In this document: positions 28,341 to 61,616 of the stretch, in pieces
Position numbering within the stretch: position 1 is the stretch's first letter
Layout: each line of letters starts with the position of its first letter
Assembly: GCA_913009205.1 (NCBI GenBank)
Contig: CAJVYC010000013.1
Span: 1-64,000 of the forward strand
Reading direction: 5' to 3'
Source of the DNA: an uncultured Fluviicola sp.
GTDB taxonomy: Bacteria > Bacteroidota > Bacteroidia > Flavobacteriales_D > Crocinitomicaceae
Length of the DNA: 64,000 bases
Translations under genes and position numbers: made by a program
The notes under the pieces: generated by a model
Databases searched by the model: none
What the model saw: the letters and a program-made list of their open reading frames with translations, nothing else
What the model was told of the DNA's origin: nothing

Positions 28341-28367
28341 CCGTCTAAAATGTTATTTTTACTTACT

Positions 28368-30578
28368 ATGTTGCGCAAGCCTCTCTTTATTATTCTCTCC
28401 ATCCTTCTTTTGACTGGATCAGATTTGTTTGGGCAAGACTCTCACGAACAGCAGATTATTCGATCCATAGCTACGGAAAAAAACAAAAAAAAGCGCTTTA
28501 GTCACATCATGACTTTAGGGCAATACTACAAGGAAAATAATATTGATCGTGCGGATTCAATTCGTTCCGTGATTGTTAGGGAAAGTCGAAACTTTGAGGA
28601 TTCGATTCGCTTTGGAGCGCTATTCTACAATGCCGAAGTTGCGCTCATATTGGGTGATTTAGATGAATACCACAATACAATTCTGGCGTGTCAACCCTTT
28701 TTAAATAAATTGAAAAGTCCCGGAATTCAATTCAAGGTTTACCGACATCTAGGCTATTACCATAGCAACCAACAAGAGTATGAAACGGCCAAATTTTACC
28801 TGAAACTTTCATTGAAGAAGGCTTTACGTTTGCGCGATGTCTCCAAGCAATCTGAAGCGTATCGATATTTAGGATTGAATTATATGAATTCCAATCAAAA
28901 AGATTCGGCTCTCTATTATTCGGACAAAGCAATTAGTACTGGAAGAAGAAGTGGGAATAAAGCAGTACTTTCTCAGGCCTTTAACGTTAAGGCAGAAGTT
29001 TATGAATTTTTCGGCCAAATTGAATTAAGTGTTGCCAAAAATTTTATCAGCCGCCAACTTGCTGAGGAAATTAACAACCACCTTCTTTTAGCGAAATATT
29101 ATCGCGAAATTGGTTATTCTCAAAAGCAGATTTATAACCTTAAAGATGCCGAGAAAAATTTCAGAAAATCTTTAGAACATTCAAGGCTAATATACGACAA
29201 ACGGCAAATGGCACTGGCTCTAACCAACTTGGCATCCGTTCAGTTGGATAAAAAACAATTTAAAAAAGCGATAGCAAATTCACAGCGCTCCATCTTGTAC
29301 TTAACGGATTTGAACGATTTAAATGGTTTGGGGGAAACACACAACATTCTTGGTATGGTCTACCAAAAGCAGAACGATTATACAAAAGCCTCAAACAATT
29401 TCAATCAAGCCCTAATCTATTACGAATCCACGAGTAACAGGGAGAAAATGGCAGGGGTTTACCATAATGTTGGTACCGTTTTTAAGGAACGCGGAAAGTA
29501 TACGACTGCCTTAAATTACTTGAACAGATCTGTAGAAATTAGAGAACAATACGGAGCAAAAAACCAAATTTACAATACTTACAGGGTGATTGCTGATGTT
29601 TATAAGGACATCGATAATACGGCTGAGTCACTTAAGTATATGGAGCTGTATCTCAATTATATAGATAGCAATACCATATTGCAAGCGGCTAACAAAATTG
29701 CAGAGTTAAGTGAATCATATAATTCAGCACAGCGCGAAAAAATAAATTCGTCGTTAAAAGATTCCCTCATCAGACAAGGGAGCCAAAAAGAAGTTACCGC
29801 TACCCGACTTGAAAACAGTCAACTGAGAAATAATTTTCAGATGTACATTATTATCGCTTTCATTATCATTATCGTGATGGCTGGCCTCATTATATTTTAC
29901 GGCTGGAATCAGACAAAAATTAAGCAGCAACGAAAGGAGGCAGAAATGTCCCAAACACTTTTGAGGACTCAGATGAATCCTCACTTTGTCTTCAACGCAA
30001 TGTCGGTTATACAAAGTTATATCTTCGATCATGACACGGAAAACTCTTCCAAATTCTTGGTCAATTTTTCCAGACTCATGCGACTTATTCTGGAGAACTC
30101 ACCGAAGGAGCACATTCCGATTCCCACTGAAGTTGAGATTTTAGAAAAGTATTTATCAATGCAGAAATTGAGATTCCAAGAGCGTTTCGAATACTCAATT
30201 GATGCGAATTTCGATTTGTATGATGAAAGCGCGAACATTCCACCAATGATTACGCAACCGTTTATTGAAAACGCCATTGAACACGGACAATTGCATACTG
30301 TTGAAGGTGGATTTATATCTGTGACTTTTACAAAAAGTGAAGGCATGTTAATTATTTCTATCGTTGACAATGGCGTCGGTAGGAAGGGATCCAGCATCAA
30401 TAAGAAAAGCTCTGCTCATAAAAGCATGGCAATGGAGATCACACGAGATCGAATTGAAAACCTAAATAAGAAGTACAAGACAGACGGATCCTTAGTCGTA
30501 GAAGACTATAATAAAGAATTGGAAATTGGCACAAAAGTGTTAATTTCACTGCCATACACCACTGAATCAAATCGTTAA
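28368..30578 (+). CDS. TPR-containing LytS-type sensor histidine kinase
   Basis: 736 residues from the second ATG (MLRKPLFIILSILLLTGS), chosen because it opens a compact signal peptide; the ATG at 28350 adds six residues. Residues about 25-480 are tandem TPR repeats (for example LAKYYREIGYSQ, GLGETHNILGMVYQKQNDYTKA), predicted periplasmic. A transmembrane helix lies at about 490-512. The cytoplasmic His_kinase domain has QMNPHFVFNAMSVIQSYI (phospho-acceptor His near 538), and the ATPase domain has FIENAIEHGQ and DNGVGRKG. It presumably phosphorylates the LytTR regulator encoded 18 bp downstream. The signal is unknown. Confidence 0.9.
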   Translation: MLRKPLFIILSILLLTGSDLFGQDSHEQQIIRSIATEKNKKKRFSHIMTLGQYYKENNIDRADSIRSVIVRESRNFEDSIRFGALFYNAEVALILGDLDEYHNTILACQPFLNKLKSPGIQFKVYRHLGYYHSNQQEYETAKFYLKLSLKKALRLRDVSKQSEAYRYLGLNYMNSNQKDSALYYSDKAISTGRRSGNKAVLSQAFNVKAEVYEFFGQIELSVAKNFISRQLAEEINNHLLLAKYYREIGYSQKQIYNLKDAEKNFRKSLEHSRLIYDKRQMALALTNLASVQLDKKQFKKAIANSQRSILYLTDLNDLNGLGETHNILGMVYQKQNDYTKASNNFNQALIYYESTSNREKMAGVYHNVGTVFKERGKYTTALNYLNRSVEIREQYGAKNQIYNTYRVIADVYKDIDNTAESLKYMELYLNYIDSNTILQAANKIAELSESYNSAQREKINSSLKDSLIRQGSQKEVTATRLENSQLRNNFQMYIIIAFIIIIVMAGLIIFYGWNQTKIKQQRKEAEMSQTLLRTQMNPHFVFNAMSVIQSYIFDHDTENSSKFLVNFSRLMRLILENSPKEHIPIPTEVEILEKYLSMQKLRFQERFEYSIDANFDLYDESANIPPMITQPFIENAIEHGQLHTVEGGFISVTFTKSEGMLIISIVDNGVGRKGSSINKKSSAHKSMAMEITRDRIENLNKKYKTDGSLVVEDYNKELEIGTKVLISLPYTTESNR

Positions 30579-30596
30579 TATTAAAAATGAATAACT

Positions 30597-31343
30597 ATGA
30601 AGAAGATTCTAATTATTGATGATGAAAATCGTACAAGAGATTTAATTGCTAAAATGATTGACTCCTTTGGATTTGATGTCGAAACGATTCCTGAAGGTGA
30701 AAGCGTTCAGTCGGGAATTAAGGCGATCGAAACACACAATCCGGATATCGTATTTATAGATATTCAAATGCCAGATGGAACTGGGTTTGATGTGATCCGT
30801 TCCATTGAAAACAAAAAATTCGAAGTTATATTCATTACTGCTCACGAGGAGTTTGCCATTAAAGCAATCAAGTTCAGTGCTTTGGATTACTTATTAAAAC
30901 CTGTTGATACAAGTGAATTAAAAGCGGCATTGGAGAAAGCACTGGCTGTTATTGAAGAAAATAATAATGGGTATTCACAATTTGATGCTTTACAAAAAAA
31001 CATTATTCCCAATGAGAAACGAAGGTTGGTTTTGAAAACTCAACAAAGCGTACATGTTGTGGAGCTTGATCAAATTATCAGATGTGAGGCAGATAGAAAC
31101 TATACCTCTTTCTTCCTATTGGACGATAAAAAGATCCTTGTTTCAAAAACATTAAAGGAGTATGAAATCCTATTATCAGGATACAATTTCCTTCGTGTTC
31201 AGCAATCTCACCTTATTAATGTTAGTTATGTCGACAGGTATGATAAGAAGAATGGCGGAGCAGTTGTTATGAAAAACGGAGATGAAGTTCCATTGTCCCC
31301 AGCCAAGAGAGAGCTGTTTTTCAAGAAATTAGAGAACTTATAA
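30597..31343 (+). CDS. LytTR-family response regulator
   Basis: 248 residues. N-terminal receiver domain with acidic pair Asp8/Asp9, phospho-acceptor Asp55 in FIDIQMPDG, the conserved Thr in FITAH, and Lys in LLKPVD. C-terminal LytTR DNA-binding domain at about 140-245 (IIRCEADRNYTSFFL, FLRVQQSHLINVSYV). It lies 18 bp behind the TPR-kinase gene on the same strand and is its expected partner. LytTR proteins act as transcription regulators at direct repeats; the target genes are not evident. A non-coding RNA candidate follows directly. Confidence 0.95.
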   Translation: MKKILIIDDENRTRDLIAKMIDSFGFDVETIPEGESVQSGIKAIETHNPDIVFIDIQMPDGTGFDVIRSIENKKFEVIFITAHEEFAIKAIKFSALDYLLKPVDTSELKAALEKALAVIEENNNGYSQFDALQKNIIPNEKRRLVLKTQQSVHVVELDQIIRCEADRNYTSFFLLDDKKILVSKTLKEYEILLSGYNFLRVQQSHLINVSYVDRYDKKNGGAVVMKNGDEVPLSPAKRELFFKKLENL

Positions 31344-31397
31344 AACAAAAAATCGCTGAAAATGGTTATATGTTCAATTATACCTAGTCGATATTCA

Positions 31398-31426
31398 TTG
31401 ACCACCTTTCGATCAGAATAAATTTG
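31398..31426 (+). promoter_or_regulatory. Full Bacteroidota promoter with no ORF downstream
   Basis: TTG (31398-31400), an 18-bp spacer, then TAAATTTG (31419-31426): both boxes of the TTG-N(17-23)-TAnnTTTG consensus at good spacing. It lies 55 bp after the response regulator stop and points into a region without an ORF. Confidence 0.65.
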
Positions 31427-31431
31427 GTATA

Positions 31432-31622
31432 CTTACTAATAAGAAATAAGGAGAAATGTCAGGAAGTTTCTTTTAGTTCCGCTTTGAAATATTAGAAGTT
31501 ATGCTGCTTGGAGAGGCAGTTTCATTTTCTAGTTTGATTAAAGAGTATAACAGTTCTTAAAACTTCTGATTTTAAAGCAGTGCTTCGGTGCAAGGCTTAA
31601 AGAAAATTCCTGATTTTTTTTG
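31432..31622 (+). ncRNA. Candidate structured non-coding RNA, about 190 nt, 6S-like layout
   Basis: It starts just after the consensus promoter. TCAGGAAGTTTCTTT (31459-31473) pairs with AAAGAAAATTCCTGA (31599-31613) at 14 of 15 positions, and eight T residues (31614-31621) follow directly, so the long-range stem doubles as terminator. Further pairings inside are GCTTTG (31481-31486) with CAAGGC (31591-31596), and an apical helix AGAAGTTATGCT (31494-31505) with AGTATAAC (31544-31551) and TTCT (31554-31557). One long rod with internal bulges and about 190 nt length resembles 6S RNA. No ORF is present. The 6S assignment is inference. Confidence 0.5.
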
Positions 31623-31719
31623 TTTCTAGTTTTACGTTAAGGTTTAATTCTTCTTTACTACAGAAGAAATTGTTGTTACACTACTTCGGTAAGATGACTT
31701 ACTACTTTTAAATAGGAAA

Positions 31720-31750
31720 AGTGTTAATGGAGATTAGCGCTTTTTTTATT
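31720..31750 (+). terminator. Rho-independent terminator overlapping the convergent gene's stop
   Basis: A 9-bp stem AGTGTTAAT (31720-31728) / ATTAGCGCT (31733-31741), two G-U wobbles, loop GGAG, then TTTTTTTATTTT. The T-run covers the stop codon of the convergent cyclase gene. It is a second stop signal for rightward transcripts. Confidence 0.75.
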
Positions 31751-32492
31751 TTATAGCGTATAGAACCGGGCGACTAGGTGCCGCATCATTATTGAAAGGT
31801 GCTACTTGAAAGCTTAAAATGTACTTTCCATCCTTAATCACATTATCGACATAAATAAGTTCAGTAATCGTTCTTTTAAAGTTCGGTGCTTGTGGTACTT
31901 CCCAAAATGCATGATGAAATGCCAAAGCCCCACCATCGCTCTCGCGGTCAACAGAAGGCAAATCGATCAATAAATGTTCAATCCCGTTTTCTAACAACAC
32001 ATTAACGCATTCCACATCTAAGTAAGGTGGATTCGATTCAGAATAGTTCTTAGTTGTCTTTACTCTATCGTTTGGCATTGTTCTAATTACCAGGGCTTCC
32101 CCTTGAAAATTGATCTTCCTCATTTGATCCGGAGTAATGATAAAATCAATATCTCCATTTGCTTGCTCAACACGTTTTGGTAAAATTGAAACCAATGTAG
32201 CCTCGAAAAAGTAATTTTTCAATACATCATTTATCGAATGAACCTCTTCTGTTATGTGTCCCAAACACTCCGTGTGCGTCCCATGTCCATGCGGATTAAA
32301 ATAAATATCCCTGAAATTTACAGCACCACCTTCTTTTACAGAACCAATATAATTTTCTGTTCTAACCGGTTCAAATCTCGGTACATCAACATACCAAGCC
32401 CTTGGGTTTCTAGCGTCATTAGTGAGCGGTATAGATAAATCCAATGGAGAATTGGTATCTATAAATTGATTGTTACTTAGGTATAATTTCAT
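31746..32492 (-). CDS. Cyclase/kynurenine-formamidase-like metal-dependent hydrolase
   Basis: 248 residues. The cyclase family motif is HGHGTHTECLGH near residues 68-79, a variant of HGTHxDxPxH that binds the catalytic metal. The C-terminal part has IDLPSVDRESDGGALAFHHAFW. Family members hydrolyse N-formylkynurenine or open cyclic amides. Substrate is not predictable here, and no tryptophan-degradation gene is adjacent. No signal peptide, so probably cytosolic. Family length is about 210-260, so the gene is intact. It is convergent with the kinase/regulator/ncRNA unit. Confidence 0.8.
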   Translation of the reverse strand: MKLYLSNNQFIDTNSPLDLSIPLTNDARNPRAWYVDVPRFEPVRTENYIGSVKEGGAVNFRDIYFNPHGHGTHTECLGHITEEVHSINDVLKNYFFEATLVSILPKRVEQANGDIDFIITPDQMRKINFQGEALVIRTMPNDRVKTTKNYSESNPPYLDVECVNVLLENGIEHLLIDLPSVDRESDGGALAFHHAFWEVPQAPNFKRTITELIYVDNVIKDGKYILSFQVAPFNNDAAPSRPVLYAIK

Positions 32493-61534: not shown

Positions 61535-61616
61535 GCCTCGGTGGCGGAACTGGTAGACGCGCTGGATTCAAAATCCAGTGCCTTCGGGCGTGCGGGTTCG
61601 ATTCCCGCCCGAGGTA
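61535..61616 (+). tRNA. tRNA-Leu, anticodon CAA
   Basis: Acceptor GCCTCGG / CCGAGGT with A73, D-arm GGCGGAACTGGTAGACGC, anticodon stem CTGGA / TCCAG around TTCAAAA (anticodon CAA, decodes UUG), long class II variable arm TGCCTTCGGGCGT, and T-arm GCGGG-TTCGATT-CCCGC. CCA is not encoded; CAAG follows. The first acceptor pair is G1-U72, a wobble. Confidence 0.97.

Follow-up and report, generated by a model that had tools for sequence, protein, structure and literature searches.

The RNA gene and its surroundings

The locus described here lies within a 64-kb window (the whole stretch of DNA analysed, 64,000 nt) and consists of genes for a sensor histidine kinase and a LytTR response regulator, followed by a gene for a structured RNA (Table 1). 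An initial annotation had proposed such an unannotated RNA gene and had given it a 6S-like shape. Homologues, compensatory changes and a conserved promoter lend the gene good support, whereas the 6S reading is not supported. The gene is real and apparently uncatalogued, and it specifies a folded RNA within one family of aquatic bacteria, the Crocinitomicaceae. When the window was scanned with Rfam, only a tRNA reached the gathering score, and since the RNA matches no Rfam family we have not filed it as a member of any. ARAGORN reported neither a tmRNA nor a tRNA at the RNA locus, its sole find in the window being a tRNA-Leu at 61535, and both identities were rejected on this basis. The putative cyclase gene that converges on the RNA (31746-32492, minus strand, PF04199) stays downstream of it in many relatives, also when the upstream gene is a different one.

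Table 1. Features of the kinase, regulator and RNA locus, in positions of the window.
Feature	Positions	Strand	Basis and remarks
Sensor histidine kinase with TPR repeats, putative partner of the LytTR regulator	28350-30578	+	ORF of 742 aa; Pfam TPR_12 and His_kinase PF06580
LytTR response regulator, putative activator of the RNA	30597-31343	+	Pfam Response_reg 84.3 bits, LytTR 57.4 bits; orthologue co-occurs with the RNA
Distal direct-repeat box ATGTTCAAT, putative LytTR site	31370-31378	+	21 bp from the proximal box; part of the only box pair without mismatch in its own genome
Proximal direct-repeat box ATATTCATT, putative LytTR site	31391-31399	+	Box in 52/61 promoters; consensus AATATTCATTTG
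-7 box TATACTTA	31428-31435	+	Position and TATACTTR-like sequence conserved; replaces TAAATTTG at 31419-31426
5′ leader AGAAATAAGGAG	31442-31453	+	Near the inferred RNA start; GAAATAA invariant in the 30-locus alignment; by eye kept in most of the divergent relatives
P1 closing stem, 5′ strand	31459-31478	+	Pairs with 31594-31613; predicted fold and compensatory changes
P2 and P3 stems, 5′ strands	31481-31500	+	P2 31481-31488/31571-31578, P3 31491-31500/31561-31570; predicted fold; own arms pair better than permuted arms
58-nt apical core	31502-31559	+	Hairpin CTGCTTGGAGAGGCAG, then TTTCATTTTCTAGTTTGAT, then a weak hairpin AAGAG..TTCTT; two alignments and a match of core model R1
3′ strands of P3, P2 and P1	31561-31613	+	Predicted fold; small side hairpin GTGC-GTGC at 31580-31591, by eye also in the folds of relatives
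T8 tract after P1	31614-31621	+	Sequence; possible early terminator; missing in some relatives, e.g. L025-L027
3′ domain	31641-31706	+	Hairpin 31649-31654/31662-31667, TTGTTGTTA, TACTAC at 31656-31661 and 31700-31705, ACTACT at 31680-31685; TACTAC on the RNA strand only
A/U-rich hairpin with T run, probable terminator	31710-31751	+	Predicted fold; overlaps the end of the convergent cyclase gene; by eye similar in most of 30 relatives

Homologues of the RNA in the Crocinitomicaceae

When 150 genomes of the family were searched at the DNA level, homologues came up in all 19 sampled genomes of the genus, the source genome included, each at E ≤ 7.7e-29, and the core was also matched in other genera. 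The RNA was detected in 9 of the 24 genera of the family. Among 299 genomes of the order, 76 gave a match to R1, a model of the 58-position core, and 74 of these belong to the Crocinitomicaceae; in a sample of the phylum R1 matched 2 of 296 genomes, both from the same family. The R1 matches in other families (G153 and G232) were weak, inside ORFs and on the opposite strand, and we dismissed them as chance.

A search with the core pattern gave no match in viral contigs. The pattern occurs in at least 119 stretches of named genomes, and among the matches listed, 55 of 80 are titled Crocinitomicaceae or Flavobacteriales and the genomes named include Fluviicola and Taishania. Records titled Chitinophaga pinensis (L129 and L131), Glaciecola amylolytica (L126) and Actinomyces viscosus (L113) contain the pattern as well; L129 and L131 are probably mislabelled members of the Crocinitomicaceae. 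Four further records carry it (L104, L142, L145 and L154), among which the title Chryseobacterium gleum is found.

A long rod with a conserved tip and co-varying arms

The closing stem of the initial annotation was borne out by a check of the sequence, in which 31459-31473 pair with 31599-31613 at 14 of 15 positions and eight T residues follow directly. Folding, which had been suggested as a check, gave -51.7 kcal/mol for 31430-31625 against a mean of -40.1 for 200 dinucleotide shuffles, none of which was as stable (z -2.87). An inner helix proposed between 31494-31505 and 31544-31557 is absent from the predicted fold, where the apical hairpin is formed by 31503-31509 and 31514-31520. This hairpin, CTGCTTGGAGAGGCAG, and the TTTCATTTTCTAGTTTGAT that follows are nearly invariant in alignments of relatives. 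Conservation is strongest in the hairpin and the single-stranded segment at the tip of the rod, and the arms drift in sequence with their pairing kept. This is the pattern of a structured RNA and not of a protein. Conservation in relatives had likewise been named as a check, and homologues in the genus and the family provide it, their arms co-varying.

RNAalifold missed P2 and P3, whose arms differ in length, in a 30-row alignment, and we used an arm-permutation test and a within-genus count. For the permutation test, from which L077, L078, L079, L085 and L086 were dropped, we compared the pairing of each sequence's own arms with that of permuted partners. Across 60 distinct sequences, the P2/P3 arms paired with their own partner at a mean of -22.6 kcal/mol, compared with -12.2 (sd 0.56) for permuted partners and -14.4 for the best of 2000 permutations, and in 21 of the 60 the own partner ranked first among all those available. 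The P1 arms behaved similarly (-17.9 own, -11.9 permuted), whereas an unrelated control stretch showed no gain in pairing (-9.5 own, -10.0 permuted). The within-genus count covered P1, P2 and the apical hairpin in 17 sequences, P3 being left out. Here 92.6% of cells were paired and 20 cells had changed on both sides, compared with 7.5 in shuffles, none of 500 of which reached 20; further pair types did not exceed the shuffles (21 vs 20.7). Slid structures were at most 61% paired, a control biased toward the real structure, which had been obtained by folding one of these same sequences. Together, the two tests demonstrate the rod by co-variation.

A conserved promoter with boxes at a 21-bp period

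The initial annotation read a promoter as TTG-N18-TAAATTTG. Both elements are present (TTG at 31398-31400, TAAATTTG at 31419-31426), however TAAATTTG is not conserved in relatives. What relatives keep is a TATACTTR motif about 7 nt before the leader GAAATAAGG, which would place the RNA start near 31441, just ahead of the leader AGAAATAAGGAG. A simple consensus scan lent no support to a promoter here, listing one promoter-like site on the minus strand (1.2 expected).

Upstream of the -7 box are conserved boxes with a AATATTCATT-like consensus at a period of 21 bp. The promoter set comprised 61 promoters after L078 and L079 had been dropped together with three rows that lack a recognised leader (L069 copy 3, L076 and L087); of these three, L076 and L087 show the 21-bp pair and L069 copy 3 does not. 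Nine of the 61 promoters lack a proximal box as defined. In the 52 that have it, the 9-mer located 21 bp upstream matched the proximal box at 6.50 of 9 positions and that located 42 bp upstream at 5.67, whereas other lags gave 2.87 (sd 0.58); at a lag of 21 bp, 24 of the 52 promoters matched at 7 or more positions. According to an excerpt of PMC4847170, the sites of nearly every LytTR regulator consist of two repeats, direct or inverse, that are 9-11 nt long and 11-13 nt apart, and the 21-bp period seen in the 52 of 61 promoters with a proximal box agrees with this arrangement. As the spacing is typical of LytTR sites and a LytTR regulator is encoded just upstream, we propose that this regulator binds the boxes. 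The even spacing thereby suggests that the neighboring sensor-regulator pair switches the RNA gene on.

In the source genome, only 31370-31399 fits the box-pair pattern exactly. Allowing up to 2 mismatches raises the number of places to 126, compared with 45 for the reversed pattern, so that such sites may be neither rare nor all functional. Ten look-alikes were examined, namely all eight with 1 mismatch and two with 2, and five of these are inside ORFs and five intergenic. We do not claim a wider regulon. The five intergenic ones, with 1 or 2 mismatches (G000:C1:31563, C1:85055, C2:169307, C17:10279 and C1:409541), are possible further sites of the LytTR regulator. In the 650 bases before the kinase gene, the repeat filter printed no repeat.

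Co-occurrence of the RNA with the regulator

The regulator is adjacent to the RNA at this locus and lies upstream of it in 28 of 30 loci. A regulator orthologue (E ≤ 1.6e-87) was found in 96 of the 150 family genomes. In raw counts that ignore phylogeny, 79 genomes have both the RNA and the orthologue, 2 the RNA only, 17 the regulator only and 52 neither. Adding four RNAs recognised by eye behind the regulator changes these counts to 83, 2, 13 and 52. We chose the orthologue cut-off ourselves, at a gap that runs through genus g7, and if the nine intermediate homologues (8 in g7, 1 in g17) are counted as orthologues the table becomes 79, 2, 26 and 43. Each of the nine RNA-bearing genera has the orthologue in some of its genomes.

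Co-occurrence also holds in genera g14, g16 and g22, where the RNA lies away from the regulator (in L019 and L028 it follows cysS); most of these non-adjacent loci keep the boxes, the leader and the core. The regulator is present with no detected RNA in 6 of 18 g22 genomes. The two genomes with the RNA only are 82% and 76% complete. The former, G028, carries at locus L085 one of the nine promoters that have no box, and a box-less promoter in a regulator-less genome fits a link between regulator and boxes, with the proviso that this genome is 82% complete.

A second conserved domain and the end of the transcript

The initial annotation ended the gene at about 31622, for a length of about 190 nt, and in this respect it probably falls short, as the gene would extend to the hairpin at 31710-31751. 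Because the T tract is missing in some relatives and a further conserved element lies downstream, a longer transcript is suggested, and we estimate that the RNA may be about 310 nt, or, with an end at the T8 tract, about 180 nt. The downstream hairpin is a probable terminator by its predicted fold. It is absent from the output of the simple consensus scan, whose one terminator-like site is the apical hairpin at 31503-31520 (0.3 expected).

A second conserved domain after the rod, made up of TTGTTGTTA and UACUAC, is seen across L001-L030. The 3′ domain is kept where the downstream gene differs, as in L019, L022 and L023. Counted over the 170 nt that follow the rod in 64 loci, TACTAC amounts to 80 occurrences and is never on the other strand; 40 of the loci have one or more and 25 have two or more; control stretches contained 0 upstream and 1 downstream, and 200 shuffles had a mean of 3.9 and a maximum of 11. 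A search of seven chosen genomes for AATTAACTTACTACT with up to 1 mismatch found 9 sites, 7 of them at the RNA locus, compared with 19 for the reversed control, and the motif is therefore not enriched genome-wide. In L026, a unit like TTAACTTACTACTAA is repeated in the stretch after the rod.

A proposed LytTR-RNA circuit and its known counterparts

Co-variation, together with a short ORF that is not conserved, marks the RNA as structured and non-coding, a trait expected in the functional class of RNAIII and VR-RNA. We consider it probable, at moderate confidence, that it is a trans-acting regulatory RNA under LytTR control, which acts in the manner of RNAIII or VR-RNA and has no detectable sequence relation to them. 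We propose that the sensor kinase and the LytTR regulator would receive a signal, upon which the regulator would bind the 21-bp-spaced boxes just upstream of the TATACTTR promoter and switch on the RNA. The RNA would fold as a long rod presenting the nearly invariant apical hairpin and the single-stranded core, followed by the UACUAC tail. The exposed core and tail would then bind target mRNAs or a protein, and through this the RNA would carry out the regulator's effects. We infer box binding, activation, action in trans and the choice of partner from sequence.

The arrangement resembles the agr system of Staphylococcus aureus, in which a LytTR response regulator, AgrA, has an adjacent gene for a regulatory RNA, the structured RNAIII. 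An excerpt of PMC4227749 describes AgrA repeats as direct, centred near -60 and just upstream of promoters with sub-optimal spacing, and direct repeats just upstream of the promoter are also what we find here. The differences from agr are that the present RNA matches no Rfam family, the box sequence is another, the kinase has TPR repeats and the phylum is a different one.

In Clostridium perfringens, VirR, which has a LytTR domain, is paired with VirS and controls VR-RNA, a regulatory RNA, as we propose for the regulator here. As reported in an excerpt of PMC4963840, the VirR motif CCAnTT-n15-CCAGTT has a 21-bp period as well, and VR-RNA is 386 nt long, with 5′ and 3′ ends predicted to pair, so that size and closing pairing are similar to those of our RNA. 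The same excerpt has the regulator and the RNA scattered in the C. perfringens genome, a likeness to the loci where our RNA lies apart from its regulator. The two systems differ in box sequence, and the RNA described here, to which the Rfam scans matched no family, is found in nine genera of a Bacteroidota family.

A third comparison is with YpdB of Escherichia coli, which differs in that it controls a protein gene, yhjX, and not an RNA. The YpdB sites in the yhjX promoter, as given in an excerpt of PMC4847170, form a direct repeat GGCATTTCAT that resembles AATATTCATT in its TTCAT part.

Partner of the core and alternative explanations

A search of the source genome for start-codon targets of the core segment UUUCAUUUUCUAGUUUGAU (complement ATCAAACTAGAAAATGAAA) gave 7 sites away from the locus, each with 3 mismatches and none at a start codon, and the idea that the core is antisense to start codons is not supported in this genome. 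With 58 nearly invariant nucleotides, the core is longer than a base-pairing seed usually needs. This length may point to a protein partner, the main alternative to mRNA pairing.

One way in which a protein could be involved is binding or sequestration, where an RNA similar to CsrB or RsmZ under LytTR control would offer the invariant hairpin CUGCUUGGAGAGGCAG and UACUAC as protein sites. The hairpin, which contains GGA, and its single-stranded flank are near-invariant across genera and the tail repeats a short motif, as this explanation would have it, however GGA motifs are few and the known partner is missing, as a search of the source genome for CsrA (PF02599) found none (0/1). We rejected a CsrB-like RNA acting with CsrA, and regard a protein-binding or sequestering RNA in the wider sense as unlikely.

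The RNA could also be a 6S RNA that has diverged strongly and whose rod binds RNA polymerase by imitating an open promoter, an explanation we find improbable. 6S RNAs diverge fast and are usually growth-phase controlled. The present RNA is rod-like and has its own promoter, a small hairpin beyond the first stem in its 3′ strand and, if it ends at T8, a similar length of about 180 nt, and no recognised 6S RNA is found elsewhere in its genome. The related Flavobacterium psychrophilum does have a detected 6S RNA, according to an excerpt of PMC9723704. Of the two Rfam models, 6S-Flavo (RF01685) is insensitive in Flavobacteriales_D, where it matched 2 of 150 genomes of the order, both below the cut-off. 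Against a 6S RNA, neither RF00013 (6S) nor RF01685 matched the region up to E 10, the check that the initial annotation had proposed; the five weak matches returned for 31300-31780 include no 6S model. The source genome has no match to either at E ≤ 1, and RF00013 scored above its cut-off in 0 of 40 family genomes, with one sub-threshold match of 19.4 bits in another genus. Held against the large central bubble that 6S RNA has between closing stem and terminal stem, the predicted fold gives a mixed picture, with the rod and the hairpin on the 3′ side present, P1 leading into a short junction, and conservation centred on the tip. The strong conservation of the tip, the patchy distribution over 9 of 24 genera, LytTR-type promoter boxes that suggest a specific signal and up to three tandem copies in some genomes stand against a 6S RNA. 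On the model results, we rejected membership in the 6S family. Elsewhere, in one genus of another family, 6S-Flavo weakly matched L031 (1398-1518, 46.4 bits) and L032 (1501-1623, 41.4 bits) against a cut-off of 85, and these are possibly diverged 6S RNAs under the Rfam cut-off.

Since the scan listed no terminator-like site from the regulator stop at 31343 up to the RNA, read-through is possible, and the RNA might belong to the LytTR operon as its 3′ untranslated region, a cis element and not an independent gene. Its own conserved promoter with boxes argues against this, as do the loci of g14, g16 and g22 where it stands apart from the regulator, and we hold this explanation to be very improbable.

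A small protein gene can be dismissed almost entirely: the region had been described as free of ORFs and does contain one that coincides with the conserved core, running from ATG to TAA at 31501-31560 and encoding the 19-aa peptide MLLGEAVSFSSLIKEYNSS, but its start codon is found in 5 of 30 loci, start and frame are intact in 3 of 30, and one-base indels in the core break the frame.

Returning to the LytTR-controlled regulatory RNA, LytTR-to-RNA circuits are, to our knowledge, known from Firmicutes, and we know of few Bacteroidota regulatory RNAs with an assigned regulator. A literature search found nothing on small RNAs or LytTR in the Crocinitomicaceae, nor on noncoding RNA in Fluviicola. 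We tentatively suggest, as a possibility that goes further, an independently arisen Bacteroidota counterpart of agr/RNAIII and VirSR/VR-RNA: a LytTR two-component system whose main output would be a structured RNA of a class not described before, with an ultra-conserved apical core of 58 nt, a UACUAC-repeat tail, a new partner or pairing mode and, in one genus, tandem diverging copies. If so, the design of a master RNA would recur independently in a distant phylum, nine genera would share a compact, testable circuit of kinase, regulator, boxes and RNA, and Rfam could gain a new RNA family. With a core this close to invariant, the partner, and through it the mechanism, can be approached directly by experiment.

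Tandem copies and diverged relatives

Some g22 genomes have three tandem RNA copies about 300 nt apart, as in L067 (at 1435, 1760 and 2055) and L069 (at 1334, 1634 and 1927), and also L068 and L070. In L067 and L069, the first two copies keep the 21-bp boxes, and the third lacks a box pair and has an altered core; tandem copies of which one has a changed core fit a diversifying regulatory RNA. Diverged relatives are found directly behind the regulator orthologue in L245 (G034), L249 (G044) and L250 (G007), where the closing stem or the leader is kept and the core has changed. The RNA family may thus be wider than sequence searches show.
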